Below are positions 432 through 62,965 of a DNA stretch of 64,000 bases, one piece after another (positions within the stretch are counted from its first letter, which is position 1; each line of letters starts with the position of its first letter). The stretch spans positions 62,001 through 126,000 of the forward strand of contig PDLQ01000013.1 of the NCBI GenBank assembly GCA_002591745.1. The letters are read 5' to 3'. Below the pieces are notes generated by a model. That model did not search any database, was not told the origin of the DNA, and worked only from the letters and a program-made list of their open reading frames with translations. The DNA comes from Lewinellaceae bacterium SD302. GTDB lineage: Bacteria; Bacteroidota; Bacteroidia; Chitinophagales; Saprospiraceae. A program made the position numbers and the translations under genes.

Positions 432-454
432 TTTGACTAGCAAAGTAGCAATGG
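432..454 (-). repeat. Dispersed TGCTACTTTG motif, copy 1
   Basis: Copy of the family with core GGCTARCAAAGTAGCARTG; here GACTAGCAAAGTAGCAATG. The strand given for all copies is the direction in which TGCTACTTTG reads. This copy points at the gene starting at 232. Confidence 0.8.
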
Positions 455-738
455 TAAGTTGAAACGGGAGAGACATCTTTTTTGCGACGATCACCGAAAG
501 TAAAGTAACAGTGCTGGTGGCAAGCTCGTCCGCCGAGGTGCGATGCTAGGAGCTGGTTCGTCGGCCGAGCGGATGATATGGCATTCTTGATGAATAAAAA
601 TTTTTCCAGATGAATTAATGATGAGTAACTCCCGCTCGGCGGACGAATCAGGCCCTACGGTCCGCTTCGGCCGACGAGCTAAGGCTGGCGGAAGAGTAAA
701 TCCATCGTATCTTCGAACTTTATCCCCTGAAAACCAAC

Positions 739-761
739 TTTGCTACTTTGCTAGTCCCAAA
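739..761 (+). repeat. Dispersed TGCTACTTTG motif, copy 2
   Basis: Reads TTTGCTACTTTGCTAGTCCC and overlaps the TTG start codon (748) of the following T9SS surface protein, so it would be both promoter-like and coding. Confidence 0.8.
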
Positions 762-2601
762 AATCCAGCTTACGGCCATCTTCCTGTTGATGACCTTCGC
801 CGTAACCGCCCAGTGTACCGGCAACCTCGGCGAAAATATCTTTACCGACGGCGATTTCGGCTCCGGCGTAGATAATATCCCGCCAACCGACCCCGGTATC
901 GCCCCAGGTTATACTTACACGACCTTTCCGCCGCCCAACGACGGCTCTTACGTGATCACCAATAATACGGCTCCCTGGGGTTCCTTCGCTTCCAACTGGG
1001 ATGATATCGGCGACAACAGTCCCGACCCCAATGGCTACATGATGGTGGTAAACGCCAGCTTTAGCCCCGGCCTTTTCTACGAACAGGAAGTGACGGGCCT
1101 TTGCGAAAACACGCTCTACGTGTTCAGCGCAGATATCTATAACTTGATTCCCGGCAGTCAGTGGATCCAGCCTAATGTGTCATTTTTGATCGATGGAAAT
1201 ATTGAATTCGAGACCGGAGACATCACGGCAGCCGGAGCATGGATCACCTACGGATTTACTTTCACTACTGCTCCCGGGCAAACCAGCGTGACGCTGGCCC
1301 TGGCAAACAATGCGCCCGGCGGTAACGGCAATGATCTGGCCCTGGACAACATCACTTTCCGCCCTTGCGGCCCCGAAGCATTGATCTTGCCGGACATAGT
1401 GGCCAACATCTGCGAGGACGGCGATCCGCTAACCCTGGACGCTACGGTCAATGGCGAACAGTACGATACCCCGGTCATCCAGTGGCAAGAGAGCCTGGAT
1501 GGTGGCCTGACCTGGATGGATGTGCCCGGTGCCAACGACCTGGAATTGATCTTTGATAACCTGGCATCCGGCGAATATCAATTTCGCTACCTGCTGGCCA
1601 ATGCACCCAGCAACCTGGCCAACAGCCGCTGCCGGGTGGTTTCCAATGTGAAAGTAGTGAACGTGATCCCTAAATTTTATACGATTACCGACACCCTTTG
1701 TGAAGGCTTAGGTTTCGACCTGAACGGAACCCTCTACACGGAAAGCGGGGTCTACGTCGATAGTTTATTCACCGTCCTGGGCTGTGATAGCGTAGTGACG
1801 CTGGAACTGACCATCGTACCCGACTCAGACATAACGGCAGACTTTACCACCGTCGATCCCGAATGTAACGGCTTTGGCTCCGGCTCAATATTTATCGATA
1901 CGGTTTTCAACGGAGCTCCGCCGCTGATCCTCACCCTTAATGACACTATGTTTGCGGATACGGCCCTGTTAAACGTAATGGCCGGTAATTACCATTTCGT
2001 CTTCACGGATCGTTTTGGCTGTACCTTTGAACGAACATTACAGTTAGAGGATCCACCGCTTTTTCAGGTGGAGATAGGAGAGGACATCATCGTGGAACTG
2101 GGCGATGTCGCCCGGTTATCGGCAGTTACTTCAGCACCCTATGACACCCTGATTTGGAGTGGAATAGACAGTTTCAATTGTCAGAATGATTGCGAAAGTA
2201 TCAACTTCCTGCCAAGTGCTTCCAGCTTCGTGACCATTAATGCTTTCAGCGCTGGCGTTGGCTGTCCATCGGTAGATTCGGTCTTTGTGATCGTACAGGA
2301 CGCTCGCCGGGTGTACATCCCAAATGCTTTTTCCCCGAATGGAGACGGTGTGAATGACGCCTTTACTGTTTTCGCCGATCAGCCCAATGTACAGTCTGTA
2401 CAGCTATTGGAAGTTTACGATCGCTGGGGTGGACAGGTATTCGTAGGAGAAAATCTGCCACCTAACGCCACGGCCAGTGGATGGGACGGTAGCAACCGGG
2501 ACGAACCCGCCCAGTCCGGTGTCTATCTCTACCGTGCCGAAGTCTTGTTTTTGGACGGGCGTACCATTTCCTATTCCGGCAACGTAAATCTGCTGAGGTA
2601 G
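748..2601 (+). CDS. Secreted surface protein with T9SS type B (CHU_C-like) C-terminal domain
   Basis: 617 residues. A signal peptide (residues 1-22, hydrophobic LTAIFLLMTFAVTA then Q) is followed by a carbohydrate-binding-like beta-sandwich region (about 30-205, many Gly/Asn/Asp, ending LALDNITFRPCGP), Ig-like segments with cysteine pairs, and a C-terminal gliding-motility/T9SS type B domain (about 525-617: PNAFSPNGDGVNDAF, YDRWGGQVF, SGVYLYRAEV). The domain order predicts export by the type IX system and display on the cell surface. The start is TTG 748; the signal peptide is lost if the next ATG is used. The stop overlaps the next start by one base, suggesting cotranscription. Confidence 0.85.
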   Translation: MLVPKIQLTAIFLLMTFAVTAQCTGNLGENIFTDGDFGSGVDNIPPTDPGIAPGYTYTTFPPPNDGSYVITNNTAPWGSFASNWDDIGDNSPDPNGYMMVVNASFSPGLFYEQEVTGLCENTLYVFSADIYNLIPGSQWIQPNVSFLIDGNIEFETGDITAAGAWITYGFTFTTAPGQTSVTLALANNAPGGNGNDLALDNITFRPCGPEALILPDIVANICEDGDPLTLDATVNGEQYDTPVIQWQESLDGGLTWMDVPGANDLELIFDNLASGEYQFRYLLANAPSNLANSRCRVVSNVKVVNVIPKFYTITDTLCEGLGFDLNGTLYTESGVYVDSLFTVLGCDSVVTLELTIVPDSDITADFTTVDPECNGFGSGSIFIDTVFNGAPPLILTLNDTMFADTALLNVMAGNYHFVFTDRFGCTFERTLQLEDPPLFQVEIGEDIIVELGDVARLSAVTSAPYDTLIWSGIDSFNCQNDCESINFLPSASSFVTINAFSAGVGCPSVDSVFVIVQDARRVYIPNAFSPNGDGVNDAFTVFADQPNVQSVQLLEVYDRWGGQVFVGENLPPNATASGWDGSNRDEPAQSGVYLYRAEVLFLDGRTISYSGNVNLLR

Positions 2602-5918: not shown

Positions 5919-6169
5919 TTAAAACTCAACATTTAATATTCAGCAATCTGCTCAAAAAAGTAAGCGCGTGATGAGTACGCAGACAGGGCAAATGCTAAAG
6001 AATAAACATTGAACTTTGAGGGCGAAGGACGATCACCGAAGGTAATCAGGATAGTTCAATGTTATGGCTAGCAAAGTAGCAAAGTTGAATTGATAAGCGA
6101 ATGTAAGCGGCCCTTGTTCGATTGGTAAGATCAAATTTCTCCAGACTTGACTTCGGGCGACCAAACAAC
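5919..6169. other. Intergenic region between ppk1 and the GntP gene
   Basis: About 250 bases without a gene. It holds GACGATCACCGAAGGTAA at 6028-6045, which differs by one base from 486-503, and a dispersed-motif copy at 6064-6085. These two elements lie within about 40 bases of each other in both places. Confidence 0.6.
6064..6085 (-). repeat. Dispersed TGCTACTTTG motif, copy 3
   Basis: ATGGCTAGCAAAGTAGCAAA, pointing toward ppk1, about 145 bases upstream of its start. Confidence 0.8.
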
Positions 6170-11589: not shown

Positions 11590-11903
11590 AAGCATCGTCA
11601 AAGAACCCCGGTACGAGTGTCGCTTTGGTAGTCCAATTCGCCGCTCTTACGAGTACCTCGGACCGGAGGTCCTCGACCCAGATATCTCTTTTGGCTTATA
11701 TAAACCCGCCATTGCCTTTTCTCCGGAAGGTTCAATCTTTTGGCTAGCAAAGTAGCAATGCTATTGTCAAGTCCGAGAGCAATCAAGTATCGGTACCCAA
11801 CCAACCTTACTACATTGTCAGCCATAAAAAATCTTTCTTACCCCCTTGTGCTCCTTAGTGGTCTTGTGGTTAATTTTACCCCCAATAACTACTTCAACCT
11901 CCC
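11590..11903. other. Intergenic region with repeats
   Basis: No gene supported. It contains the dispersed motif at 11738-11760 and, at about 11838-11880, a T-rich stretch whose minus strand reads as imperfect tandem CACAAGGA/CACTAAGGA units (NHKTTKEHKG if translated), a kind of low-complexity sequence that recurs in many environmental genomes. Confidence 0.5.
11738..11760 (-). repeat. Dispersed TGCTACTTTG motif, copy 4
   Basis: TTTGGCTAGCAAAGTAGCAATG; one of the best matches to the consensus. It points away from the next gene (11904, plus strand), so it does not fit a simple promoter role here. Confidence 0.8.
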
Positions 11904-12820: not shown

Positions 12821-12849
12821 TAAGAATATGGGTTTTAGGTGTTTTTCAA

Positions 12850-12882
12850 GAGGAGCCGGGCAATCGTCTGGTTCCTCCTTTT
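12850..12882 (+). terminator. Hairpin of tandem unit 1
   Basis: 8-bp stem GAGGAGCC/GGTTCCTC with one G-U pair and a 12-base loop, followed by CTTTT. Confidence 0.7.
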
Positions 12883-12963
12883 AACTCGGAATCCCGGGCT
12901 CAGTGAGCCGCCCAAACGAATAAGGTTTTCATGATAGAATATGGGTTTTAGGTGTTTTTCAAA

Positions 12964-12998
12964 GAAGGGTCGAACGATCCCGTTCGACCCTTCATTTT
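12964..12998 (+). terminator. Hairpin of tandem unit 2
   Basis: Perfect 13-bp stem GAAGGGTCGAACG/CGTTCGACCCTTC with a 4-base loop ATCC, followed by ATTTTA. Confidence 0.75.
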
Positions 12999-13063
12999 AC
13001 CTCCCCATCTTGTGAGAACTATAAGATATTAAAGGTTTTCATGATAGAATATGGGTTTTTAGT

Positions 13064-13087
13064 GGGGAGCTTCGGCTCCCCTTTTTT
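13064..13087 (+). terminator. Strong terminator of tandem unit 3, just before xseA
   Basis: Perfect stem GGGGAGC/GCTCCCC closed by a TTCG tetraloop and followed by six T. It ends 10 bases before the proposed xseA GTG start, so transcripts entering from upstream should end here unless the structure is bypassed. Confidence 0.9.
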
Positions 13088-14419: not shown

Positions 14420-15361
14420 TCACTTTCTAGCTGAAATATTAATTTCTCCCTTACGAATATGTGCCGTCCAATCTCCCCCAACGGCCACCAACTCCGTACC
14501 GCCTTTGGCCGTCAGTATCTGACGGAACTGGTCGCCCTTGAATCCGTAATCCCGCAATTTATAGTAGAGCAATTGCAGGGCCACGGCGGGGTCATTGGGA
14601 AGCTTTTTACGGTCGATCCGGTCCGAAGCGATCAGTGCGTTTTCCCACAGGGCATCCAGCCCGGCGCGGAAAAGGGATTCGTCTTGTCTTAGTCGCTCGA
14701 AAGTAGTGGAAAGTCGGTTATAGCCGTCGGTCTGCAGTTCAGTCAGGTAGGGGATGACGTGGTGCCGCAGCCGGTTGCGATTGTATTTGTCCGTAGCATT
14801 ACTACCGTCTTCTCTCCAAGGTAGCTGATGGATACGGGCATAATTCTCGATTTCTTCCCGGGAGCAATTCAGCAAGGGTCTGGTCAGGCCGTTATCCAAT
14901 TTGGGCTGCATACCCGTCAGGCCGGTGAGCGAGGTGCCACGGGTCAGTTGCAGGAGAAGCGTTTCCAGATTGTCGTCCAGGTGATGAGCGGTGCAGATCG
15001 CCGCTGCTTCGCGCCGCTTTTTTAGTTCTTGTAGCCAGTCGTAACGAAGCTGGCGGGCGGTGGCTTGCAGATTTCCGGTCCTCAGAGCGGCGCTTTCATC
15101 AGCACTGCTACTTTGTAGCCAAAATGAACACCCAAATTGTTTGGCCAAGCCGGCTACGAACTCGGCATCACCCTCACTTTCTGCTCCCCGTAAACGATAA
15201 TTGTAATGGGCTACTTCCACTGGATAACCGGCAGCTTTTAAGGCGTGTAAAAGCACCACGCTGTCCAGCCCCCCGCTAACGGCTAGCAGCAGTTGGTCGC
15301 CGGGCTGAAAAAGCCGTTCTCGTTGAATTAAATCTGCCATTTTATCCGCCAGTTTGCTCAT
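14420..15361 (-). CDS. tilS: tRNA(Ile)-lysidine synthase (short form)
   Basis: 313 residues. TilS adds lysine to C34 of the tRNA-Ile with CAU anticodon so that it reads AUA codons. The PP-loop AVSGGLDSVVLLHAL (about 28-42), HYNYRLRGAESEGDAEF, ICTAHHLDDNLETLLLQL and GLTGMQ are diagnostic. Many Bacteroidota TilS proteins are about 430 residues; this one lacks most of the C-terminal TilS substrate-binding region, yet ends in a normal reading frame (HIRKGEINISARK). It overlaps rlmH by four bases, so the two are cotranscribed. A dispersed-motif copy lies inside the coding sequence at 15102-15126. Confidence 0.93.
   Translation of the reverse strand: MSKLADKMADLIQRERLFQPGDQLLLAVSGGLDSVVLLHALKAAGYPVEVAHYNYRLRGAESEGDAEFVAGLAKQFGCSFWLQSSSADESAALRTGNLQATARQLRYDWLQELKKRREAAAICTAHHLDDNLETLLLQLTRGTSLTGLTGMQPKLDNGLTRPLLNCSREEIENYARIHQLPWREDGSNATDKYNRNRLRHHVIPYLTELQTDGYNRLSTTFERLRQDESLFRAGLDALWENALIASDRIDRKKLPNDPAVALQLLYYKLRDYGFKGDQFRQILTAKGGTELVAVGGDWTAHIRKGEINISARK
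15102..15126 (+). repeat. Dispersed motif, copy 5 (inside tilS)
   Basis: GCACTGCTACTTTGTAGCCA, antisense to tilS and one base shorter than the consensus (CTTTG-TAGCC rather than CTTTGYTAGCC). Confidence 0.7.
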
Positions 15362-15900: not shown

Positions 15901-18492
15901 ATGCACCCGATTCGTGGTTTTTGCTGGCTGGCCGGCTGTTTGTTCTTCCTGCTTCCGCTGTCTGCCCAACTTATTGTCGATGATTTCTCCGACGGCGATC
16001 TGCTGAACCCGGATTACCAGGGTGATTTGGCCGATTTCGTTGTCGAAAACGATAGCTTACGTCTCATGGCTGACGGAGCGGGTACTAGCCAGCTTTTCCT
16101 GCCGCTGCTGACGGATACGGCTCAGTCCATCGCTTACGAACTGAACGTTTTTCTCGACTTCAGCCCTTCGGCCAGTAACTTCGCTGCCTTTTATTTTGAT
16201 GGGTTCACCCCGGCGGGCGATGCCGTGCGCTACGAATTGCGCGTTGGCGGGATCAGTGGAAGTGACGATGCGCTGATCTTCAGTCGTGACGGAGTAGAAT
16301 TGATCGTCGGGACGATTGGCGCGGTCGGCGGAGAACCCGTACAGGTTCGCTGGCGACTGGAACGGAGTGCTACCAATGAGTGGCGATTGTTGGCGGACTA
16401 TCAAGGTAGCAATGCTTTAGAGGAACAGGGGACTTCTCAGGATCCCGACGGCGAACAGCCAGCCCTGCTCAATACTTTCACCCTGGAATGCAACTATACT
16501 TCCACGCGCTCCGATAAATTCTGGTTCGATGAGCTCGAACTTGGTCCCGTAATTGTAGACAATGACCCGCCACAACTGCTGAGTGCCGCCGTCGGCGCAA
16601 GCGATAATCAGATCGTCCTGACTTTCAACGAAAGCGTTACCGGAGAATCAATTACTGAGTTGGACAACTACACTTTTAATCCTGAAAGCCTGGAGCTACA
16701 ATCCTTGGCCGTCAATGCTTCGGAGATCATTCTCACCCTGACTGATGAGATACCTACCGGTCAGGAAATCACCGTCACGGTCATCGACGTAGCGGATAAT
16801 TTCGGTAATGTGAGCGAGGACCTTAGTGCCAGCTTCCTACTGCCGCTAACCGTAACGCCGAATATGGAGAACCTGATCATCACAGAATTCATGGCCGACC
16901 CGACACCCGAGGTGGGTTTGCCCGATGCAGAATACGTTGAAATTTATAACCGGGGCGAGGCGACCATCCGCTTACGAGATCTCGGTATTGCCAGCGGCGG
17001 TGCTCCTTCCCTGCTTCCGGATGTCAACCTGGAGCCGGGAAGCTATGCTACCATCGTCCGTGCTAGTCTAGCCGAAGAATTCGAAGAATCAGCGAATGTC
17101 ATTGCCGTCGGAACCCTGCCTGCCCTGAGTAATAGCGGGGACGTAATCGAACTGATCTTCGATGGTGAAATCATCCAGCAACTGGAATACGACCTGAGCT
17201 GGTATAAAGACGATGAGCGTAGTGATGGCGGTTACAGCCTGGAACTGGCCGACCTTGACGCGAATGACTTAAACTGTGCCGGTTTATGGGCCGCCAGTAT
17301 CGATAATGATGGTGGTACGCCGGGAGCGCTAAACAGCAGAAATGGCGAAATATTGGACGATGAAGGACCGCAGTTATTGAGCGCTACCTTTGCTACCGGT
17401 GGTATCCGCCTGTTCTTCTCCGAAAACATTGACCTGGCATCCGCCGCTGGCTCCATCAGTGTGGAACCGGACCTGCAGAGCAACGGTGTTTTGCCGGATG
17501 CGAATGGCAGTTTTCGGCTGGTTACTCAGTCGGAGCCACAGGAAGGCATCATTTATACCGTCACCGTAGCCGAAGACATTCAGGATTGTGCCGGTAACTT
17601 CAGTGACACCATTTACGAAGTAGAACTGGGTTTGGCCGAAGAAGTGGCCATTGGCGACGTGGTGATCAACGAGGTGTTGTTCAACCCTGCTACCGGGGGA
17701 TCGGATTTCGTGGAACTATTCAACTGTTCGGACAAAATACTGAACGTCAACGGCTGGACGCTGGCCAATACGATTACAATGACCGGCAGCCCGCGTGAAC
17801 AGATTGAAGCTGACCGCTTGCTATTACCGGGCGGCTACCTGGCCTTTACCGAAGACCGCCTTGAAATACTGGCCGGCTACGAACAGGCCCAGGAGGCTTT
17901 CCTGATCGAAAATGATCTGCCGAGCCTGGCCAACGACCTGGGTAACGTCACCCTGGTTGCCCCCAATGGAGACACTCTGGATAGCTACGATTATACCGAG
18001 GAGCAACACAGCGCTCTGCTGGATGACGTTAACGGTGTCAGTCTGGAGCGGGTCAATGCCAAGGCAGCTACCCAGCAGGATGGCAACTGGTTCAGCGCGG
18101 CCTCCAGAGTTGGTTTTGCCACGCCCACGAGGGTGAACTCCCAGGCCCGTGCAGGCATTGTGCTCCCGGAAGAAGATGGTTTTTTCTTCCTGGACGAGGA
18201 TACTTTTAGTCCCGATGGTGACGGATTTCAGGATGCACTGTTCATCAACTACTCAACGCCGGGCCCGGGCTGGAACGCTCGTATTACGATCTACGACGCT
18301 AATGGCCGACCGGTAAGGTCTTTGCGTCGTGCCGAACCCCTGGCTGGCGAAGGCACTATTCTCTGGGATGGGGCAACGGATGAGCAGCAACTGGCCCGTA
18401 CCGGTATCTATATCCTGCTGATCGAACGCTTCGAGCCAAACGGAGAAACCGAGAACGAGAAGCTGGTTGCGGTATTGGTCAATCCAAAATAA
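15901..18492 (+). CDS. Secreted surface protein with lamin-tail and Ig-like domains
   Basis: 863 residues from ATG 15901. The signal peptide (residues 1-23, CWLAGCLFFLLPLSAQ) precedes a laminin-G-like N-terminal region, SbsA/Big_5-type Ig domains (VTLTFNES-like ILTFNESVTGESITEL and GGIRLFFSENIDL), two lamin-tail domains (IITEFMADPTP...EYVEIYNRG; VINEVLFNPATGGSDFVELF), and a FlgD-like C-terminal Ig domain (FSPDGDGFQDALFINYS, TRTGIYILLIERF-like). Such proteins are large T9SS-exported adhesins or enzymes' scaffolds in Bacteroidota; no catalytic domain is apparent. The upstream TTG 15880 would disturb the signal peptide. Confidence 0.85.
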   Translation: MHPIRGFCWLAGCLFFLLPLSAQLIVDDFSDGDLLNPDYQGDLADFVVENDSLRLMADGAGTSQLFLPLLTDTAQSIAYELNVFLDFSPSASNFAAFYFDGFTPAGDAVRYELRVGGISGSDDALIFSRDGVELIVGTIGAVGGEPVQVRWRLERSATNEWRLLADYQGSNALEEQGTSQDPDGEQPALLNTFTLECNYTSTRSDKFWFDELELGPVIVDNDPPQLLSAAVGASDNQIVLTFNESVTGESITELDNYTFNPESLELQSLAVNASEIILTLTDEIPTGQEITVTVIDVADNFGNVSEDLSASFLLPLTVTPNMENLIITEFMADPTPEVGLPDAEYVEIYNRGEATIRLRDLGIASGGAPSLLPDVNLEPGSYATIVRASLAEEFEESANVIAVGTLPALSNSGDVIELIFDGEIIQQLEYDLSWYKDDERSDGGYSLELADLDANDLNCAGLWAASIDNDGGTPGALNSRNGEILDDEGPQLLSATFATGGIRLFFSENIDLASAAGSISVEPDLQSNGVLPDANGSFRLVTQSEPQEGIIYTVTVAEDIQDCAGNFSDTIYEVELGLAEEVAIGDVVINEVLFNPATGGSDFVELFNCSDKILNVNGWTLANTITMTGSPREQIEADRLLLPGGYLAFTEDRLEILAGYEQAQEAFLIENDLPSLANDLGNVTLVAPNGDTLDSYDYTEEQHSALLDDVNGVSLERVNAKAATQQDGNWFSAASRVGFATPTRVNSQARAGIVLPEEDGFFFLDEDTFSPDGDGFQDALFINYSTPGPGWNARITIYDANGRPVRSLRRAEPLAGEGTILWDGATDEQQLARTGIYILLIERFEPNGETENEKLVAVLVNPK

Positions 18493-23321: not shown

Positions 23322-24464
23322 TTACGATTCGGCATCCGTTCCTGAGTCGACCAATAATGTATCTTTTTCACCATTCTTAGCCAATTCGGTTGTTCGGTCG
23401 GCGGTTTCCCGGTCGCCATCTTCCTTCTTGAGTTCTTCTTGTTCGCCAGATCGCGCCGGATCAAATGCAAGCTCTACGTAAACGGGGAAGTGGTCAGATT
23501 GAATAGTGTCCAGTCTTTCCAAACTTCTCAAAGTGAAATCTTTGCTGTGAAAAACGTGGTCCAGCGGCCACCGGGCAAACCAATAGTCAGCGTGGAAAGT
23601 GGCGAAGAACCCCCGCCCCCGACGTGGGTCCAACAAGCCACTGAGACGCTGAAAAAGCCGGGTGGAGTGAGACCAGGCTACGTCGTTCAGATCTCCCGCT
23701 ACGATGGTCCGGTCGCTGCCGGCTTCTTCTACCAATCGGCCAACTACGGCCAGTTCGCCGTCGCGCTCGGTGCTGCTGTCTTCTTCAGTGGGGCTGGGTA
23801 CGCTGGGGTGCACACCGTAGAGCTTGATCCAGGGGCCGTCGTTGGGTAACTTAACCTCTACGTAAATACTGGGCAGGTCATCGGAAACGTGGTAGTTCAC
23901 CGTCTCGTTGCGCAGTTCGAGCCGACTGTAAAGGTGCATACCGTAGCGATTTTCCTTGGGCACCTTAATGGTATGGGGGTAGTCCTGAATCAACTCGGCA
24001 TCCAGTTCATTTTGCCAGCGCTGGTTGGTTTCCAAGGTCAGGATCAGGTCGGGGTCTTTTGCACGAATGCGTTCGATGAGTAAATCCGACCGCTCGTTTT
24101 TTTGCAGGACATTAGACATCAGCAGACTAACAAAGTAGCCGTGCTCGTAGTCGGCCGCCGTGGTTTTTACCTGATGATTCCAAATGGGGGTATAGGGTAA
24201 TATCTTCGCTACCTGGTAAACGAGGGCGGCCCCGATAATACCGGTCAGTACCCAGTCGTCGGCGTCAAAGAAATAAGACTCCACCAATAATAGCCCGATG
24301 GCGGTCAACATAATGAAAACCAGCTGTACCCTCGGATAGTCAAATCCCCTGATCCACCAGTCGTCGTAGCGCAAAAACGGAATCAGCGTTCCGGCAATGC
24401 CGAAAAGACCAAATGACCAGGCGAGGATATCGAGGATGAGCAAGTTAATAATGAGTTGTTCCAT
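23322..24464 (-). CDS. Membrane-anchored endonuclease/exonuclease/phosphatase family protein
   Basis: 381 residues from ATG 24464. Three membrane segments at the N-terminus (about 3-25, 38-58, 67-87), then an EEP catalytic domain with LTLETNQRW, YGVHPSVPSPTEED, IVAGDLNDVAWS and TIQSDHFPVYVEL. The tail is acidic and low-complexity (EEQEELKKEDGDRE). Proteins of this layout are widespread in Bacteroidota and are called EEP family hydrolases; the substrate (DNA, inositol phosphate or lipid) is unknown. A copy of the dispersed motif (24125-24145) encodes GYFVS within the domain. Confidence 0.85.
   Translation of the reverse strand: MEQLIINLLILDILAWSFGLFGIAGTLIPFLRYDDWWIRGFDYPRVQLVFIMLTAIGLLLVESYFFDADDWVLTGIIGAALVYQVAKILPYTPIWNHQVKTTAADYEHGYFVSLLMSNVLQKNERSDLLIERIRAKDPDLILTLETNQRWQNELDAELIQDYPHTIKVPKENRYGMHLYSRLELRNETVNYHVSDDLPSIYVEVKLPNDGPWIKLYGVHPSVPSPTEEDSSTERDGELAVVGRLVEEAGSDRTIVAGDLNDVAWSHSTRLFQRLSGLLDPRRGRGFFATFHADYWFARWPLDHVFHSKDFTLRSLERLDTIQSDHFPVYVELAFDPARSGEQEELKKEDGDRETADRTTELAKNGEKDTLLVDSGTDAES
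24125..24145 (-). repeat. Dispersed motif, copy 6 (inside EEP gene)
   Basis: GACTAACAAAGTAGCCGTGC; sense direction of the motif's TACTTTG reads with the host gene, encoding GYFVS. Confidence 0.75.
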
Positions 24465-24631
24465 TACTATTACGGGGCTGGTACGACCTTGTTCGCTCCC
24501 AAAGGCAGATGAATGCATTTCCGGACCGTATTTCTTCCGTTTGAGTACAGCAGAGCTCTTTCAACTTCTATCTTTGTTACTTTATTTCGCTGATCGTCGC
24601 CAGGCATTATTGGCTCCGATTTGCACCAGAT

Positions 24632-24652
24632 CTTTGCTACTTTGAAGCCATA
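24632..24652 (+). promoter_or_regulatory. Dispersed motif, copy 7, promoter-like for RDD gene
   Basis: CTTTGCTACTTTGAAGCCAT, reading toward the RDD gene with its ATG 15 bases downstream, the position expected of a -7 region in Bacteroidota. Confidence 0.75.
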
Positions 24653-24666
24653 AACCTCATCACTAT

Positions 24667-26493: not shown

Positions 26494-26547
26494 AATGAAA
26501 CTTAGTATCTTCGCGGGCCTAAAGAATGACCAACGAGTTTCTTTTTC

Positions 26548-26570
26548 ATGGCTAACAAAGTAGCGGTGCT
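26548..26570 (-). promoter_or_regulatory. Dispersed motif, copy 8, upstream of lipB
   Basis: CATGGCTAACAAAGTAGCGG; TACTTTG reads toward lipB, whose ATG is about 60 bases downstream. Confidence 0.7.
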
Positions 26571-29447: not shown

Positions 29448-30566
29448 ATGTCTAAATTCCTCTTATCCGTTATGCTGCCCTTCGTTGCGTTGGCCATGAC
29501 CGCCTGCGGCAGCGATTCCGGCACTGCTACTTTGAAGCCAGAAAAAACCGAAACTGAGACTCCGGTAGATACCCTGCGCTACTCCGCCGAGTCTCACCTG
29601 GAGAACCTCAGGCAATTGACCTTCGGGGGAGACAACGCCGAGGCATACTTCAGTTTCGACGACCGTAAACTGGTCTTTCAGGCCAGCAATGATGCCTGGG
29701 GGGCGGAGTGTGACCAGATCTACACCATGGGCTTCGACGGCACCGACCCCGCTAAAGCTCCGCAAATGTTGAGCACCGGTAAGGGCCGCACTACCTGTTC
29801 TTTTTTCTTGCCCGGCAACGAAGAGATCGTCTACGCCAGCACCCACCTGGCCGATGACGCCTGCCCCGAAGCACCCCGCGTACTAAATGGTAAATATGTC
29901 TGGCCGGTCTTTTCCAGTTTCGACATCTTCGTGGCCGATCTGGAAGGCAACGTGCTGCGTCAATTAACCGACGAGCCCGGTTACGACGCCGAAGCTACCG
30001 TGAGCCCCGACGGTAAAAAGATCGTATTTACCAGCGACCGCTCCGGCGACCTGGAACTTTATACCATGGACATCGACGGCTCCAACGTCAGGCAGATCAC
30101 CAGTGGCCTTGGCTACGACGGTGGCGCCTTCTTCAGCCCCGACAGCAAAAAACTGATCTTCCGCGCCAGCCGCCCCACCGCCGAAGAAGACGTGAAGGTG
30201 TACAAAGACCTGCTGGCCCAGGGTTTGGTGCAACCCACCAACATGGAACTCTACGTCTGCAATGCCGAAGACGGCAGCGAACTGCGGCAGATCACCGATT
30301 TGGGTAAAGCAAACTGGGCGCCTTACTTCCACCCCAGCGGTGAAAAGGTCATCTTCGCCAGTAACCACCACCAGCCCAGTGGTCGCGTTTTCAACCTCTT
30401 CATGATTGACCTCGACGGCGAAAATCTCGAGCAGATCACCCACGACGATACTTTTGATGCTTTCCCAATGTTCAGCTACGACGGTAAACAGCTGGTATTC
30501 TCCAGCAACCGTTTTAACGGCGGAACGCGGGCGACGAATGTGTTTTTGGCTGACTGGAAAGAGTAG
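29448..30566 (+). CDS. TolB-like beta-propeller lipoprotein
   Basis: 372 residues from ATG 29448. Lipoprotein signal peptide with lipobox MTACG (Cys20). Repeated PD40/WD40-like beta-propeller blades: DAEATVSPDGKKIVFTSDRS, DGGAFFSPDSKKLIFRASRP, NWAPYFHPSGEKVIFASNHH, DAFPMFSYDGKQLVFSSNR. These are the signatures of TolB-type propellers used for protein binding in the envelope. The strongest neighbour hints are none. A motif copy (29521-29541) lies just after the lipobox and encodes GTATLKPE, so part of the linker may derive from it. Confidence 0.88.
   Translation: MSKFLLSVMLPFVALAMTACGSDSGTATLKPEKTETETPVDTLRYSAESHLENLRQLTFGGDNAEAYFSFDDRKLVFQASNDAWGAECDQIYTMGFDGTDPAKAPQMLSTGKGRTTCSFFLPGNEEIVYASTHLADDACPEAPRVLNGKYVWPVFSSFDIFVADLEGNVLRQLTDEPGYDAEATVSPDGKKIVFTSDRSGDLELYTMDIDGSNVRQITSGLGYDGGAFFSPDSKKLIFRASRPTAEEDVKVYKDLLAQGLVQPTNMELYVCNAEDGSELRQITDLGKANWAPYFHPSGEKVIFASNHHQPSGRVFNLFMIDLDGENLEQITHDDTFDAFPMFSYDGKQLVFSSNRFNGGTRATNVFLADWKE
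29521..29541 (+). repeat. Dispersed motif, copy 9 (inside TolB-like gene)
   Basis: GCACTGCTACTTTGAAGCCA, in the flexible linker directly after the lipobox of the lipoprotein. Confidence 0.75.
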
Positions 30567-30653: not shown

Positions 30654-32432
30654 ATGAATATACGCTGGTCAAGCTTTGTGTTAATCTTATTGATTGCGGG
30701 TTGTGAGCCGAGTGTACCTGATGCAGCCCGTCAGTCGATCACAACCCGGCCGGCTGCGATAGGCTCGGATAGTGTTCACTCGGGCTTTGCCGCCACCCGG
30801 CCAGATCAACGAACTTTAGCCAATCTGGAGTTGCTGGGCCGGGTTTGGGGCTACGTCAAGTATTATCACCCCGCCGTTGCCGGTGGTTGCTGCGATCTGG
30901 ATCAGGAATTATTCAAGTTGTTGCCACTGAGCAGGCAGGACAGTTTCGCTAAACATTTAGCCGATTGGGTAAAGTCTTTTCCTGAGCTTGAGCCAATTTT
31001 GGTTGGCAATGTAGCAGTGTTGGATGACGGGCAGAAGTACTCTACCTACGATCGTAGCTGGTGGGCTCCCGAAATTATCGGCACTGAGCTGGTCGAATCA
31101 CTGAAAAGTATTCCTCTGCCCATCGAAGTCGAGGAAGCTAACAGGGTGCTAGGTGCGGATGACGAAAATTTGCATCATTACATCAGCTTTGCGCCCCGCG
31201 TGGGCAATCCGATCTTCAAAAACGAATATCCTTATCCCGAAATAGCTGCTGACGATAGCGGTATGCGTATTCTGACCCTGTTTCGCTACTGGAATATGAT
31301 CGAATACTTTTTTCCTTACAAAGACCTGACGGACTTGCCCTGGAGCGAAGTCTTGCCCACCTATATACCGCTGGTCATTGCTGCCGAAGAACCTTTGGAG
31401 TTTCAAAAGGTTATCTATCGGTTGATCGGAGAGGTTAACGACAGCCACGCTGGCATGTGGTTCAAGCCCAAAGAAATGCAGGACTTTCTACCGTTGTTGC
31501 GGGTCTGCGCATTGCCGGTCTACCGGGATGGGAAAATGGTGATCGCCAAACTCGGAGAGAAAAACGACTCTCTGGACCTTGGGGATGTGATTCTAGCCGT
31601 AGATGATAGGACTACCGAGGAATTGATCGAACACTACCGGCCTTTTTGTCCAGGTTCTAACGAAACGGCCATTTACCGTGATATCGGACTATTGCTGTTA
31701 GGAAGTAACCAGGATAGCGTTACGGTGAAAGTAGATCGGCAGGGTAGAGTACTGGACCTGAAATGTAGTACCCACGGACCCATGTGGGGCAATTGGTTTG
31801 GCGATGACCGACGAGCGGGTTTTGAGTACATCGGCGGCCAGGACAGCATCGGATACATCTACGCAGCCAGTTTGAATAAGGGGGAGATCGATCGGGTAAT
31901 GCCCGAAAATCTGAACCTAAAAGGACTGGTGGTGGATTTAAGGAATTATCCCAGTAGGTTCATTGTGTTCTCCTTGGGTAAATACCTGGTACCCCAGCCT
32001 GAGCCATTCGCAAAATTTACCGTCGGGAGTATGGTTCGGCCCGGCGACTTTTACTGGACCGATCCGGTAAAAGTCGGAGATGGTAACCGCCCCGTATTCA
32101 AGGGTAAAGTAGTGATTCTGGTAGACGGGTTTACCCAAAGTCAACCGGAATACACGGCCATGGCATTACGGAAGCATTTTCGTAGTACCGTCGTAGGTAG
32201 TACCACGGCCGGAGCGGATGGAAACGTGTCTCAAATTATTCTGCCGGGAGGTATCGGTACCTCTATCTCCGGTATCGGCGTATTTTATCCCGATGGCAGT
32301 CCGACTCAGCGTATTGGCATTGTGCCGGACATTGAAGTTGTCCAGGATTTTGCGGCCATCCAAGCCGGACGGGATGCGCAGTTGGATATGGCCTTAGAAA
32401 TTATTCGGGAGAATGATCCGGGCGCTCTTTAG
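30654..32432 (+). CDS. S41 family peptidase lipoprotein
   Basis: 592 residues. Lipobox LIAGC (Cys17). The layout matches Bacteroidota S41 (C-terminal processing peptidase-like) lipoproteins: an N-terminal region containing LLGRVWGYVKYYHPAV, a second helical region with LTLFRYWNMIEYFFPYKD, a PDZ-like part (GDVILAVDDRTTEEL) and the peptidase domain (VVDLRNYPSRFI, VVILVDGFTQSQPEYTAM, GSTTAGADGNVS, PDIEV). The usual catalytic Ser/Lys pair would be in the TQSQPE and STTAGADG segments. Envelope-anchored protease of unknown substrate. Confidence 0.88.
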   Translation: MNIRWSSFVLILLIAGCEPSVPDAARQSITTRPAAIGSDSVHSGFAATRPDQRTLANLELLGRVWGYVKYYHPAVAGGCCDLDQELFKLLPLSRQDSFAKHLADWVKSFPELEPILVGNVAVLDDGQKYSTYDRSWWAPEIIGTELVESLKSIPLPIEVEEANRVLGADDENLHHYISFAPRVGNPIFKNEYPYPEIAADDSGMRILTLFRYWNMIEYFFPYKDLTDLPWSEVLPTYIPLVIAAEEPLEFQKVIYRLIGEVNDSHAGMWFKPKEMQDFLPLLRVCALPVYRDGKMVIAKLGEKNDSLDLGDVILAVDDRTTEELIEHYRPFCPGSNETAIYRDIGLLLLGSNQDSVTVKVDRQGRVLDLKCSTHGPMWGNWFGDDRRAGFEYIGGQDSIGYIYAASLNKGEIDRVMPENLNLKGLVVDLRNYPSRFIVFSLGKYLVPQPEPFAKFTVGSMVRPGDFYWTDPVKVGDGNRPVFKGKVVILVDGFTQSQPEYTAMALRKHFRSTVVGSTTAGADGNVSQIILPGGIGTSISGIGVFYPDGSPTQRIGIVPDIEVVQDFAAIQAGRDAQLDMALEIIRENDPGAL

Positions 32433-38636: not shown

Positions 38637-38655
38637 CATAGTTGAAATTCTTTTC

Positions 38656-38939: not shown

Positions 38940-38948
38940 TATCATCCC

Positions 38949-40940: not shown

Positions 40941-41014
40941 GGGGTAAAAGTACGTCAGTATATGGAGGTCAGAAAGTGTGCATTGCTGCTTTGAATTCAG
41001 TGATCACTACAGGC

Positions 41015-41036
41015 CTTGCTACTTTGTTAGCCAATA
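41015..41036 (+). promoter_or_regulatory. Dispersed motif, copy 10, upstream of OYE gene
   Basis: CTTGCTACTTTGTTAGCCAA, pointing at the flavin oxidoreductase gene (41197). Confidence 0.75.
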
Positions 41037-41100
41037 AAAGTAGAGTAAGGTAGCAGAATCGCAATTCTCGGTGGGTGTGATAAATTGGTATAAGCCATTT

Positions 41101-41122
41101 ATGACTAGCAAAGTAGCAATGT
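41101..41122 (-). promoter_or_regulatory. Dispersed motif, copy 11, upstream of dapF
   Basis: ATGACTAGCAAAGTAGCAAT, pointing at dapF. Together with copy 10 it forms an inverted pair about 64 bases apart. Confidence 0.75.
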
Positions 41123-41196
41123 CTTTCTAAGACAGTCTTGCACTTGCTATCGAACGATCGCCAAAAATACATGTTGTAACATCAAATTCGAATATT

Positions 41197-42798: not shown

Positions 42799-42820
42799 AG
42801 CACTGCTACTTCGTTAGTCC
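42799..42820 (+). promoter_or_regulatory. Dispersed motif, copy 12, upstream of the DegP-like gene
   Basis: AGCACTGCTACTTCGTTAGT with one change in the TTTG core (TTCG); the DegP-like ATG is 11 bases downstream. Confidence 0.65.
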
Positions 42821-42831
42821 TATTACATCCC

Positions 42832-48492: not shown

Positions 48493-49140
48493 ATGATAGA
48501 ACGTACTTACAAGGTCAAGGAAGTTTTCTATACCCTCCAGGGGGAGGGAGGCCAGGCTGGTCGGGCCGCCGTGTTTTTACGTTTCACCGGTTGTAACCTC
48601 TGGAGTGGCCGTGAAGAGGATCGACCCAAGGCCATTTGTAAGTTTTGTGATACCGATTTCGTAGGTACGGATGGTGAAAATGGCGGTCGCTACTCAGCGA
48701 GTAGTTTGGCTGACAAAGTAGCAATGCTTTGGCCAAGTCCTCGTTCTGGTAAGCCTTACGTTGTGTGTACGGGTGGAGAACCGCTACTACAACTCGACGA
48801 ATCCTTGATCAAAGCTTTACACGAAAAAGGATTTGAGATCGCCGTTGAAACCAACGGTACCATCCCCGCACCAGCAAGTATCGACTGGATTTGCGTAAGC
48901 CCCAAGGCCGGTTCCGAGGTCGTACAGCGTTCGGGCCACGAACTGAAATTGGTTTATCCTCAAAAGGAAGTGGAAGCTCAGCCGGAACTATTTGCCGATC
49001 TGGATTTTGAGCATTTTTACCTTCAGCCTCTGGATGGTCCGAACACCGCTCAAAACACTGTTGCTTGCGTCGAATATTGCTTGGCCAATCCCCAGTGGAA
49101 GGTTAGTTTGCAGACTCATAAGATTCTGGATATTCCATAG
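48493..49140 (+). CDS. queE: 7-carboxy-7-deazaguanine synthase
   Basis: 215 residues. A radical-SAM enzyme in queuosine synthesis. Key parts: YTLQGEGGQAGRAAVFLRF, the cluster cysteines in FTGCNLWSG and CKFCDTDF (a CX14CX2C arrangement, known for long-loop QueE proteins), VCTGGEPLLQLDE and VETNGT. The motif copy at 48706-48729 encodes SLADKVAML, which agrees with the family at this point (helix before the GGEP strand), so the motif is compatible with function. It is followed by a TauE-type permease 13 bases downstream. Confidence 0.95.
   Translation: MIERTYKVKEVFYTLQGEGGQAGRAAVFLRFTGCNLWSGREEDRPKAICKFCDTDFVGTDGENGGRYSASSLADKVAMLWPSPRSGKPYVVCTGGEPLLQLDESLIKALHEKGFEIAVETNGTIPAPASIDWICVSPKAGSEVVQRSGHELKLVYPQKEVEAQPELFADLDFEHFYLQPLDGPNTAQNTVACVEYCLANPQWKVSLQTHKILDIP
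48706..48729 (-). repeat. Dispersed motif, copy 13 (inside queE)
   Basis: TTTGGCTGACAAAGTAGCAA, antisense orientation of TACTTTG relative to queE; encodes LADKVAM. Confidence 0.75.
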
Positions 49141-58963: not shown

Positions 58964-59497
58964 TTAAAAAATCTCTTTGATGTGGATGGCTTCCTCCGGT
59001 TTCATGCGCCCGGCCAACACCAACCGCAACTCGCGGCGGCGGATGGCGCTTTCGTAGCGTTGCTGCTCAATCTCGGTCAGCGGCAGCACGTCCGGCGTTG
59101 GCACGGGGCGGCCGTTGTCTTTATTTAGCGCCACGAAAGTGAAGTAGGCACTGTGGGTTTTACGCGGGTTGGTACCCTGCATACTGGCGGCGAATACCTC
59201 CACGAAAACTTCCAGGCTGGTGTTGAAGCCCCTGGTTACTGAAGCTTCCAGCGTGATCACCTCACCCACCTTAATGGCTGAGCCAAAAGCCACGTTGTCC
59301 ACCGAAGCGGTCACTACGGCCCGGCCGGAATGTTTACCGGCACAGATGGCGCAGGCGATGTCCATCCAGCGCAGCATATTGCCGCCCATGAGGTTGTTCA
59401 TGGGGTTGGTATCGTTGGGCATCACCAGCTCGCACATAGTGGTGAAGCTGTCGGAAACGCGTTTGGCGGGTGGGCGTTGGTCTTTAGATTGGGGCAT
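58964..59497 (-). CDS. Acyl-CoA thioesterase (hotdog fold, YciA/BFIT-like)
   Basis: 177 residues from ATG 59497. Hotdog-fold thioesterase: TNPMNNLMGGNMLRWMDIAC (the NPxGxxFGG-like loop), AVVTASVDNVAFGSAIKVGE, GEVITLEASVTR, TNPRKTHSAYFTFVALNKD. Hydrolyses acyl-CoA esters of short or medium chains. A longer start at ATG 59515 adds MTNKVA, which is exactly the translated dispersed motif, so the shorter start is preferred. The motif copies flank the start on both sides. Confidence 0.9.
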   Translation of the reverse strand: MPQSKDQRPPAKRVSDSFTTMCELVMPNDTNPMNNLMGGNMLRWMDIACAICAGKHSGRAVVTASVDNVAFGSAIKVGEVITLEASVTRGFNTSLEVFVEVFAASMQGTNPRKTHSAYFTFVALNKDNGRPVPTPDVLPLTEIEQQRYESAIRRRELRLVLAGRMKPEEAIHIKEIF

Positions 59498-59517
59498 GGC
59501 TACTTTGTTAGTCAAAA
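59495..59517 (+). repeat. Dispersed motif, copy 14, over the thioesterase start
   Basis: CATGGCTACTTTGTTAGTCA; the complementary strand encodes the optional N-terminal MTNKVAM of the thioesterase. Confidence 0.75.
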
Positions 59518-59539
59518 TGGCTGCGAAGATAGGGGGGGA

Positions 59540-59560
59540 TTGGCTAGCAAAGTAGCAGTG
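59540..59560 (-). promoter_or_regulatory. Dispersed motif, copy 15, upstream of the thioesterase
   Basis: TTGGCTAGCAAAGTAGCAGT, pointing at the thioesterase; inverted pair with copy 14, 22 bases apart. Confidence 0.75.
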
Positions 59561-59645
59561 TAGCAGAGTAACACCTTAAATTTTGTCGGTTTAAAAGTTT
59601 CGGCGAGATTTAAGGCATCAATCAACAAACAACGATAATTTGTTG

Positions 59646-61307: not shown

Positions 61308-61328
61308 AGAGATCAAAAATTATAAAAT

Positions 61329-62876
61329 TTAGCGGCCAATGACCAGGCGACGGGTCAATTGACGATCGCCCTGACGGATGCGAACGAAATAGACACCGGC
61401 GGGAACATTGGCTACGTCTAGGTCATGACGGAAGGTTCCGGCTGCTACGTTCAACCCGGCTTCGTTAACCAGTACCTGACCGGTCATATTAACGAGTTGA
61501 ATATGTACATCATCGTTGGCACTAAGGCCATTGGCGGCGATGCGAACGGTTTTCTGGCTACCGTTGACAGGGTTAGGGAAAATGTTGACGGCACGGTCGA
61601 GGTCATTGTCTTGAGTAGAAGAAACCACGCCTAGCACCCGGAAGGTGAATTCTTGATCACCAAAATCACCGGCAACGTTGCATCGGTTGATCGGGCGAAC
61701 GCGCCAGGCGTTAAGAACCGTGTCAATGAGTCCATTGGCTTCGGTGAGGGTAAATTCGCTTTCGTCATACACAATGAACTCTCGTGCGCCGGCGAATTGA
61801 GCATTATAAGCTACCTGAACCAGGTACATGTCTGCATCGGGTACATCTTCCCAATCAAGGGTAACTTCGAATTCATCGATCGCGAAAAAGATCTCACCAT
61901 CTTCTGGAGTTAGCAACTCCATTTCAGCTGGGTCGGGAGCACTGTAATCGATCGGAATGTTCTGGATGAGTCCTGGACGTCCGGTGGCATTGGTGACCAT
62001 GGCGGTTCTTTGCTCATCGGTGAAGCTGGAAACACAGTTGTCGAAAGCGTAACCCATGATAGGGTAGGCTTGTACGTCGAGTGCCTGGCCATTACGATCA
62101 AGCAAAGGCTGACCGTATACACCGCTTCCATTACAACCCCAGCGATCACTGAGGTAATCGGCGGGAGTGTCACAAAAACCGTCACCGGCAATGGTACAAT
62201 TGCTGCCATCGGCCAGTTCCGTGAAACGGCCACCCACAGCAAAAGGTGCATTCTGTGAAGCGTAAGTGTTCAATGGACGAATCGGCGTGCCATCGGGTTC
62301 CGTGTAATGGAACTCAAAGCCATCGAAGGTGTGGGGTAATGACAGGAAGTGTCCCATCTCATGGCTCCAGGTGCGGTCGCCGGATCCGGTACAATCGTTG
62401 TTAATCGCCAGGGCATCTCCACCGAAGCTGTAGTAGCCACAGGCACCGGCCGGGTTTTCGACGAAGTAGCAGTTGATTACGCCAGGATCGTTATTAACGC
62501 TCATCATGGCTGATCCCTGGGCCTGGTTGTGGTCCCACCAGGTGGTATTATTCAGGAAATCGATTTCACCGTCGATGTAAAATTTGATGTTGGCGGTGGC
62601 GAAATCCTGATTCATGAGGACCATGGTCTCCAGGACCGTTTCTACGGGGATACCAAAGGTGCCGTCGGACTTGCGGACAATATGAATGCGCAGGGGCAGG
62701 AGTAGCGTATCGGTGGTACGTACGGCGGCAATCTCACCGCGTTGGTAAGCATCGATCCAGTCGCCACGGTGGGTCACACCGCAGGGAATGAGCCCTTCTT
62801 TGGAGTCGGGGGTGGATTGGGCGGTCAGAAAGCCCATACAGGCGATCAGCGCCAGGGAAAGGAGGAAACGAGTCAT
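61329..62876 (-). CDS. Secreted M43-like zinc metalloprotease with T9SS type A sorting domain (copy B)
   Basis: 515 residues. A signal peptide (MTRFLLSLALIACMGFLTAQ) is followed by the M43 catalytic domain with TWSHEMGHFLSLPHTFDGFE, the extra YPIMGYAFDNCVSSFTDEQ segment, Ig-like parts and a T9SS type A domain (VNIFPNPVNGSQKTVRI, AGVYFVRIRQGDRQLTRRLV). Tandem paralogue of the preceding gene; order of transcription suggests copy B is first. It may act on extracellular protein. No transmembrane segment. Confidence 0.92.
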   Translation of the reverse strand: MTRFLLSLALIACMGFLTAQSTPDSKEGLIPCGVTHRGDWIDAYQRGEIAAVRTTDTLLLPLRIHIVRKSDGTFGIPVETVLETMVLMNQDFATANIKFYIDGEIDFLNNTTWWDHNQAQGSAMMSVNNDPGVINCYFVENPAGACGYYSFGGDALAINNDCTGSGDRTWSHEMGHFLSLPHTFDGFEFHYTEPDGTPIRPLNTYASQNAPFAVGGRFTELADGSNCTIAGDGFCDTPADYLSDRWGCNGSGVYGQPLLDRNGQALDVQAYPIMGYAFDNCVSSFTDEQRTAMVTNATGRPGLIQNIPIDYSAPDPAEMELLTPEDGEIFFAIDEFEVTLDWEDVPDADMYLVQVAYNAQFAGAREFIVYDESEFTLTEANGLIDTVLNAWRVRPINRCNVAGDFGDQEFTFRVLGVVSSTQDNDLDRAVNIFPNPVNGSQKTVRIAANGLSANDDVHIQLVNMTGQVLVNEAGLNVAAGTFRHDLDVANVPAGVYFVRIRQGDRQLTRRLVIGR

Positions 62877-62941
62877 ATTTTCGAGCTGTTCGTGGAGTGA
62901 CTGACAGGTCCGGAAGCAGGAAGCTCGGTCGATGAAACGTC

Positions 62942-62965
62942 CGCATTGCTACTTTGCTAACCAAA
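62942..62965 (+). repeat. Dispersed motif, copy 16, upstream of mdh
   Basis: CGCATTGCTACTTTGCTAAC, pointing at mdh about 200 bases upstream of its start; a nearer -7 box probably serves mdh. Confidence 0.75.

Follow-up and report, generated by a model that had tools for sequence, protein, structure and literature searches.

A dialect-forming DNA tag with strand-specific spacing in a marine bacterium of the Lewinella/Neolewinella group

The window, a 64,000-nucleotide stretch of contig PDLQ01000013.1 of Lewinellaceae bacterium SD302, was analyzed together with the 5.48-Mb genome from which it came (G000; marine, Lewinella/Neolewinella group). A weight matrix located 19 copies of a sequence tag in the window (Table 1). 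At least 16 copies on both strands had been reported in the preliminary description; all 16 were recovered and three were added. Every one of the nine neighboring pairs closer than 2 kb had opposite orientations. The Rfam search of the window at gathering thresholds gave no match, and the tRNA search of the window found none.

Table 1. Tag copies in the window, with weight-matrix scores
Feature	Position	Strand	Score (bits)	Remarks
Tag copy ACCATTGCTACTTTGCTAGTCAAAA	431..455	-	34.3	intergenic
Tag copy	736..760	+	36.4	opposed to 431 copy
Tag copy	6062..6086	-	37.0	
Tag copy	11738..11762	-	39.0	
Tag copy	11803..11827	+	26.3	divergent pair with 11738; newly added
Tag copy	15101..15125	+	33.3	one-base-spacer form; within called gene
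Tag copy	16392..16416	-	27.5	within called gene; newly added
Tag copy	24121..24145	-	24.6	within called gene
Tag copy	24630..24654	+	24.9	AAGCC form (spacer A)
Tag copy	26546..26570	-	31.4	
Tag copy	29520..29544	+	30.3	AAGCC form; within called gene
Tag copy	30997..31021	-	26.2	within called gene; newly added
Tag copy	41012..41036	+	36.7	
Tag copy	41099..41123	-	31.0	convergent pair with 41012
Tag copy	42799..42823	+	27.9	
Tag copy	48704..48728	-	33.6	within called gene
Tag copy	59493..59517	+	27.7	
Tag copy	59538..59562	-	28.0	convergent pair with 59493
Tag copy	62942..62966	+	31.2	

The tag was non-palindromic, with a length of approximately 25 bp and an information content of about 30 bits, mostly within some 25 columns, and its consensus was RRCAYTGCTACTTTG-(NY or A)-AGYC-AAAA. 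Downstream of CTACTTTG stood either two bases (any base, then mostly a pyrimidine) or a single A, followed by AGYC and an A-rich segment; the part given earlier as constant is therefore not limited to TAGC or TAAC. In the window, GGCTARCAAAGTAGCARTG with up to three mismatches occurred 15 times, compared with 0.05 expected from dinucleotide shuffles, and none of 100 shuffles reached 15. Genome-wide, TACTTTGYTAGYC was found 480 times (1 in the reversed control) and TGCTACTTTGN{1,3}AGYC gave 1,066 exact core matches (532 forward, 534 reverse; 1 in the control), far above the level set by composition. Synonymous-codon shuffling inside called genes left 7–12 matches in five replicates, compared with 162 in the real genes. 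The consensus was strong, with 324 exact cores against 77 carrying one substitution (2 in the reversed control). A total of 1.646 Mb, 30% of the genome, contained 503 sites scoring 16 bits or more, a density of about one per 3.3 kb, from which about 1,700 sites were extrapolated for the whole genome. The abundance of the tag was thus confirmed as genuine and exceeds the number first reported. Base composition was rejected as its cause, and site density did not vary with GC content (Spearman 0.07, p 0.35; 164 windows of 10 kb).

Among 408 copies examined for gene context, 233 were intergenic, although intergenic DNA made up 15% of the sequence, and 175 lay in coding sequence (77 on the same strand as the gene, 98 on the opposite strand), as the preliminary description had also noticed. 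The copies were densest in divergent gaps (73 in 43 kb), and convergent gaps held 20. TACTTTG within the tag resembles the Bacteroidota -10 box, and the favored earlier reading was an extended promoter, with 10 of 12 copies said to read toward a gene. This likeness, the intergenic preference and the density in divergent gaps would suit an extended promoter or the operator of one regulon. Genome-wide, however, co-directional gaps showed no preference (71 copies pointing at gene starts, 69 at gene ends), coding copies occurred in both orientations, and copies were also present in convergent gaps; a promoter would also predict no exclusion between copies on one strand, such as that described below. 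The promoter reading is therefore very improbable.

The 20 other genomes of the genus examined contained only 0–2 exact copies of the G000 tag. A GC-rich counterpart, ACCYGCGN{3,7}CGCC, was present in all 20, at 464–1,691 copies (controls 58–268), while G000 itself had 39 (33 in the control). A de novo k-mer search covered five relatives, 80 kb each; genera beyond this genus were searched with the known dialect patterns only. The AT-rich and GC-rich forms appear to be one signal in two dialects: their similarity was matched in 6 of 400 permutations when G013 was used and in 11 of 400 with G009, but was not significant for G001, G007, and G015. As to whether site positions are shared between the dialects, nine of 32 mapped sites lay near a G000 site, compared with 49 of 716 random shifts, a control uncorrected for the intergenic preference; orientation agreed in only five of the nine, and a stricter run gave 6/15 and 2/8.

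Alignment of coding copies with relatives showed that 7 of 10 alignments were gapless within 6 residues of the tag (9 sites, most at 36–41% identity). In PDB alignments, the FecCD, SDF, and carotenoid-desaturase proteins were gapless over the tag-encoded residues, with a 1-residue gap directly after the site in SDF, where the tag encodes AATLPVTM, common to the PDB homologue. One further PDB alignment had a 2-residue gap beside the tag; this protein carries another site which, like that in a fifth protein, fell outside the PDB alignments. The reading frames of coding tags were non-random (52/44/18/9/3 of 126), and the flanks of the copies were not conserved. The computation showed that tag copies were built in place by point substitution, not by insertion. 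Like REP/BIME elements, the tag has hundreds of scattered copies, intergenic enrichment, and some inverted pairs; unlike them, it has no hairpin shared between the dialects as judged by visual inspection, its flanks are unconserved, and its coding copies are substitution-built. A small mobile repeat, raised earlier as one of the possibilities, or a REP-like repeat, in either case multiplied by copying, would account for many near-identical scattered copies, but the mostly gapless coding copies, the chosen reading frames, and the lack of conserved flanks or of a shared insertion length make such an origin most unlikely.

Spacing was analyzed in 1.246 Mb of G000 with the 393 sites that scored 16 bits or more; the 15 of the 408 sites that scored under 16 bits were omitted. 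The coefficient of variation (CV) of same-strand gaps was 0.46, compared with 0.83 after shuffling of the strand labels (minimum of 1,000 shuffles, 0.70). Neighbors closer than 2 kb were opposite in 138 of 149 cases (random mean 74, maximum 92 in 2,000). Same-strand pairs occurred at 0–0.23 of expectation at 150–2,000 bp, while opposite pairs occurred at 0.58–0.97 of expectation at 300–4,000 bp and were in excess below 300 bp (57 compared with about 31 under an intergenic-aware null). Copies in the same orientation thus exclude one another within about 3 kb, and the opposite orientations are nearly independent. In the set-aside contigs (400 kb), 41 of 43 close neighbors were opposite (random maximum 33 in 5,000).

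The GC-rich form was spaced similarly in four other species, less clearly in one of them. In G013, 25 of 26 neighbors were opposite, with a CV of 0.53 (random maximum 21). In G001, 13 of 15 were opposite with a CV of 0.59, and the support was weaker because the random maximum was also 13. Among the matches listed for G002, 27 of 32 neighbors under 2 kb were opposite, with a CV of 0.56 compared with 0.86; 2 of the 100 listed places were left out, each being the only one listed on its contig. Among those listed for G019, no plus-strand gap was below 2 kb, compared with 7.7 of 49 expected. Pairs were too few for a comparison in the 80-kb samples from G007, G009, and G015; in G007, one of the three under 2 kb had the same orientation.

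In G000, convergent pairs were mildly depleted at 300–2,500 bp (41 compared with 70 expected) and divergent pairs were not (68 compared with 70). The set-aside data contained 12 convergent and 14 divergent pairs, and G013 and G001 were likewise without asymmetry. Directional coverage as a reading of the convergent/divergent asymmetry was dropped, as the asymmetry was absent from the set-aside contigs.

A strand bias relative to replication, which the preliminary description had proposed to examine, was not seen: 249 tags were oriented with the net GC skew of their contigs, a crude proxy for replication direction, and 254 against it. KOPS, Ter, and parS/matS are oriented or repeated chromosomal protein sites, of which the KOPS and Ter types show polarity; unlike these, the tag had no GC skew polarity and its sequence forms differed inside one genus. 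A site for a chromosome-organizing or replication protein (nucleoid protein, fork barrier, or segregation), kept by selection for regular spacing, would explain the regularity on each strand. This explanation is improbable, given the lack of orientation bias, the difference of the entire set within one genus, and a density that does not change with GC content.

Published work describes dialects, substitution origin, intergenic preference, and strong consensus as properties of USS and DUS (PMC1626085, PMC3630211, PMC1939737). The tag resembles the DUS of Neisseriaceae and the USS of Pasteurellaceae in being a short motif without palindromic symmetry that occurs throughout the genome on both strands and shares these four properties, its dialects following clades. 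It differs in being longer and sparser, and the PF00437 search gave no full-length match. Its spacing is strand-specific to about 3 kb, whereas the DUS measured were strand-blind: with the same script, the DUS of G215 repelled each other only mildly and equally, with pair ratios of 0.36–0.74 in all three orientation classes at 48–476 bp. Their same-strand CV of 0.83 was likewise lower than after label shuffling (1.02, minimum 0.94); hairpin pairs, whose two members always face opposite ways, explain this at least in part.

The tag could be a DNA-uptake signal for natural transformation that acts directionally or on single-stranded DNA, with plus and minus copies serving different substrates and copies accumulating through a molecular drive, in which uptake and recombination are biased. 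The species forms, substitution origin, intergenic preference, and strong consensus favor this, and ComEC was present in 12 of 13 genomes, G000 among them. The strand-blind spacing of neisserial DUS speaks against it, as does the report in PMC1939737 that the orientation of DUES makes no difference to uptake. In G000, PF00437 (type IV pilus/T2SS ATPases) matched only partially: the two matches covered 83 and 46 positions of the 370-position profile, and the better one (24.9 bits, at the family cut-off) lay in a 946-aa frame; the machinery of known uptake receptors is therefore not evident in G000. Directional or single-strand uptake is possible as a close rival, but is not the preferred explanation. 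The two largest site-free gaps in G000 (25.6 and 19.4 kb) contained genes for defense and for efflux, as seen from 10 ORFs examined, and had ordinary GC contents (0.51 and 0.53), so that they look acquired from their gene content alone. The earlier suggestion of an uptake-like signal or protein site thus named the right class, in view of the species forms, the strong consensus, and the absence from these two acquired-looking stretches; the strand-specific spacing unlike that of neisserial uptake sequences and the missing link with net GC skew did not agree with it.

The strand-independent spacing suggests that the tag is read in an orientation-dependent manner. Very probably, its reader is a single protein or complex, specific to the species, that works in one direction only; a single correctly oriented copy per several kilobases suffices, and a second copy close by that faces the same way is redundant and therefore lost by decay. 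Known Chi sites have 5–8 bases, and those of E. coli are usually biased with replication. As with Chi (RecBCD/AddAB), the tag provides a site every several kilobases per strand, and orientation-dependent action would make the strands independent. Unlike Chi, it is about 25 bp long with a variable spacer; unlike E. coli Chi, which showed a CV of 1.36 and same-strand clustering (70 sites, 300 kb), it is evenly spaced and without GC skew bias.

Of the mechanisms considered, an orientation-dependent self-DNA signal working like Chi is the likeliest, although its probability stays somewhat below even. An AddAB-type helicase-nuclease would enter at a DNA end and move along one strand; on passing a tag in its direction, degradation would stop and the DNA would be handed over to recombination. 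At both arms of a break, and likewise at both ends of a fragment entering the cell, the opposite orientations would be needed, each independently of the other. Its length and species specificity would let the tag mark self DNA as well. The lack of net GC skew bias fits the Chi-like mechanism, because two-ended breaks would give none. The strong consensus and the defense and efflux genes in the two largest site-free gaps also speak for it. A PDDEXK_1 nuclease domain was found in 13 of 13 genomes examined, its proteins being candidate AddA/AddB only, and RecC was found in none of nine genomes examined. The differences from known Chi sites count against the Chi-like reading, as do the excess of opposite pairs below 300 bp and the convergent-pair depletion in G000, the latter because strict strand independence does not predict it. 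A dialect switch over about 1,700 sites is also easier to picture under transformation drive.

In the open PMC papers, no described element of this kind was found for Bacteroidota or Lewinella. The chances are nearly even that the tag represents a new class of Bacteroidota self-DNA signal, neither uptake sequence nor classical Chi, in which a long, dialect-forming site is read by a direction-reading machine, its two orientations form independent, evenly spaced sets, and DNA exchange or break repair is tied to species identity. Dialect-forming self-DNA signals are documented for two proteobacterial families (PMC1626085, PMC3630211); a further case spanning a genus in a different phylum would mean that they evolved anew. 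The strand-specific spacing provides a quantitative signature missing from the measured neisserial DUS and E. coli Chi sets, by which mechanisms can be told apart using only sequence. It suggests a machine that works in one direction, whose recognition protein becomes a tractable target. The AT-rich form in one species and the GC-rich form in its sisters would be a natural experiment in which more than 1,000 sites and their reader changed together.

In the window, the ~25-bp non-palindromic repeated site (the tag) was matched 15 times at up to three mismatches (0.05 expected). A weight matrix located 19 copies, including 16/16 of those listed in the preliminary description. The first matrix was trained on 464 kb (145 sites), and 141 of the 145 sites scored at least 19 bits, clearly separated from background; the rebuilt matrix yielded 408 sites in 1.246 Mb, whereas the reversed control gave 11. 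Read in the present orientation, the consensus is RRC-A/Y-YTGCTACTTTG, followed by a single A, or any base plus mostly a pyrimidine, and then by AGYC and an A-rich tail. Its information content was ~30 bits, declining at the margins of the ~30 columns. Exact cores numbered 324 and one-substitution cores 77 in 1.646 Mb; the reversed control contained 2 one-substitution cores.

Repeats of other kinds were also present in the window (see the table). The direct repeats spaced 110-113 bases lay upstream of the 13041 ORF and overlapped its start. One copy of the 30-base repeat overlapped the end of ORF 35771-37153, and the other lay 40 bases beyond the end of ORF 37392-38636. The two 92-base copies fell within two adjacent, possibly paralogous minus-strand ORFs of 519 and 515 aa.

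The genome holding the window (G000; the window is C35:62001-126000) was 5.48 Mb in size and was placed in the Lewinella/Neolewinella group from the relatives of one window gene, whose three best matches were Lewinella sp. W8 and two Neolewinella spp. The genome-wide count proposed in the preliminary description gave 480 copies of TACTTTGYTAGYC, against 0-2 per genome in 20 others of the genus, and 1,066 copies of TGCTACTTTGN{1,3}AGYC, against 0-3 per genome among 148 further members of the order, including 5 of the genus. In five relatives, k-mer counts and inspection of 80 kb each revealed other dispersed motifs. The common GC-rich pattern ACCYGCGN{3,7}CGCC occurred 464-1,691 times per genome in 20/20 other genus genomes (controls 58-268), and 39 times in G000 (control 33). 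In an order-wide sample of 149 genomes, the related pattern CACCYGCGN{2,8}GCSCC had 131-1,321 copies in the 5 other genus members and 0-16 in 143 genomes of other genera. The GC-rich motifs were alike, the score being reached by 0-29 of 400 column permutations. The AT-rich G000 motif resembled those of G013 (6/400) and G009 (11/400), and its likeness to those of G001, G007 and G015 was not significant in the same 400 permutations. From the likeness to the G013 and G009 motifs, the replacement of the GC-rich form in G000 and the common spacing rule described below, we infer that the AT-rich and GC-rich motifs are dialects of one signal.

Tag-free gaps, dispersed motifs of relatives (G001 to G015, same genus) and other repeats in the window
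Feature	Genome or positions	Sequence	Extent
Largest tag-free gap	G000:C60:29243-54844		25.6 kb
Second tag-free gap	G000:C71:75007-94384		19.4 kb
Dispersed motif	G013	~GCACCYGCGNCAGCGCCC	matrix: 76 sites in 280 kb
Dispersed motif	G009	~GCACCTGCGTNCCCGCCC	matrix: 9 sites
Dispersed motif	G007	~GCACCCGCGCNCCGGCGCCC	matrix: 14 sites
Dispersed motif	G015	~GCACCTGCGCKCCGTYGCCC	matrix: 14 sites
Dispersed motif	G001	~TACCTGCGCTCCGCCGCC	matrix: 53 sites in 280 kb
Direct repeats	window 12823-13064 (12823/12936; 12922/13032)		
Direct repeat	window 37126-37155; 38676-38705		30 bases, 87% identity
Repeat	window 60964-61055; 62671-62762		92 bases, 76% identity

Genes were predicted with a simple caller (coding fraction 0.85), which left 233 of the 408 tag sites between genes. 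The extended promoter favoured in the preliminary description was rejected, since tags in co-directional gaps aimed at gene starts 71 times and at gene ends 69 times, and 77 and 98 tags lay within genes on the coding and opposite strands, respectively. The small mobile repeat, its alternative, was rejected because coding tags mostly aligned gaplessly with homologues: at nine sites (most at 36-41% identity), 7 of 10 alignments with relatives were gap-free within 6 residues. Against solved structures, the alignment was gapless at the tag site of a FecCD permease and a carotenoid-desaturase-like protein. In an SDF transporter it was gapless over the tag-encoded residues (AATLPVTM, the same in the structural homologue), with a 1-residue gap immediately past them. 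A phosphorylase showed a 2-residue gap adjoining one tag site; its second site, and the site in a MiaB-like protein, fell outside the alignment. Three of six reading frames dominated among the 126 coding tags examined (52, 44, 18, 9, 3 and 0), and the encoded peptides included KVA, ATL and QSS. Synonymous-codon shuffling, the proposed codon-preserving control, left 7-12 tag matches, compared with 162 real ones. These alignments, the frame use and the shuffling indicate in-place substitution as the most likely origin of the copies.

Spacing was analyzed in 1.246 Mb of G000, with the 393 sites that scored 16 bits or more. The variation (CV) of same-strand gaps was 0.46, compared with 0.83 after strand-label shuffling (minimum 0.70 in 1,000), and 138 of 149 neighbours closer than 2 kb were opposite, where 2,000 randomizations gave a mean of 74 and at most 92. 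Same-strand pairs at 150-2,000 bp reached 0-0.23 of expectation, recovering by ~4 kb; opposite-strand pairs reached 0.58-0.97 at 300-4,000 bp and were enriched below 300 bp (57 vs ~31, intergenic-aware null). The rule held in 400 kb unused for rule discovery or matrix training (110 sites), where 41/43 close neighbours were opposite (random maximum 33 in 5,000), though the same-strand CV was 0.61. For the GC-rich motif, 25/26 neighbours were opposite in G013 (random maximum 21) and, more weakly, 13/15 in G001 (random maximum 13; CV 0.59, random minimum 0.60). Among the matches listed for two further genus members, the loose GC-rich pattern in G002 had 27/32 neighbours within 2 kb opposite and a CV of 0.56 (shuffled 0.86, minimum 0.66), and G019 had zero plus-strand gaps below 2 kb (7.7 of 49 expected). 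The 80-kb samples of G007, G009 and G015 were too small for the rule.

The tag is very probably a dispersed, substitution-built, dialect-forming and orientation-dependent signal. Since the spacing rule handles each orientation separately, it suggests a machine reading one strand or one direction. The strand bias relative to replication raised in the preliminary description was assessed by net GC skew of the contigs, a crude proxy for replication direction: 249 tags were oriented with the skew and 254 against it, and this lack of bias argues against a replication-linked function. The strand rule favours Chi-like control of an end-processing enzyme by the tag, a tentative candidate; a PDDEXK_1 nuclease domain was found in 13/13 genomes and RecC in 0/9. 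In E. coli K-12, however, Chi clusters on one strand (CV 1.36, label-shuffled 1.03; 70 copies, 300 kb), whereas the tag is evenly spaced. A directional or single-strand uptake signal also fits and is a close, somewhat less likely rival. Dialects and the strong consensus favour drive of the uptake kind, and ComEC was found in 12/13 genomes, but the type IV pilus/T2SS ATPase family gave partial matches only, the stronger G000 match lying right at the cut-off, and the strand rule points to Chi-like action instead. Neisserial-type DNA uptake sequences (DUS; 336 copies in 400 kb of G215, a DUS-bearing genome) showed mild depletion of pairs at 48-476 bp in all three orientation classes (0.36-0.74 of expectation), whereas the tag was depleted on the same strand. 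Convergent DUS pairs were enriched below 48 bp, as hairpins would give; these always-opposite pairs explain, at least partly, the DUS same-strand CV of 0.83 (label shuffling 1.02, minimum 0.94). One report describes uptake as independent of DUES orientation (PMC1939737), and another describes USS distribution as relatively even (PMC7811141).

In the window, 10 kb (31021-41012) lacked tags on either strand; the lowest-GC blocks (0.465 and 0.456) and a TonB-dependent receptor gene (32749-35763) fell within this stretch, which was possibly acquired more recently. Ten ORFs were examined in the two largest tag-free gaps of G000. In the larger, the part examined (40.9 kb onward) held an RND efflux operon together with genes for a type III restriction subunit, an OLD-family nuclease and a GmrSD-like protein; in the second, perhaps a metal-resistance island, the part examined held RND/HlyD efflux genes and the gene of a P-type ATPase. 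Under the Chi-like or the uptake model, both gaps are consistent with newly acquired DNA without the self mark.
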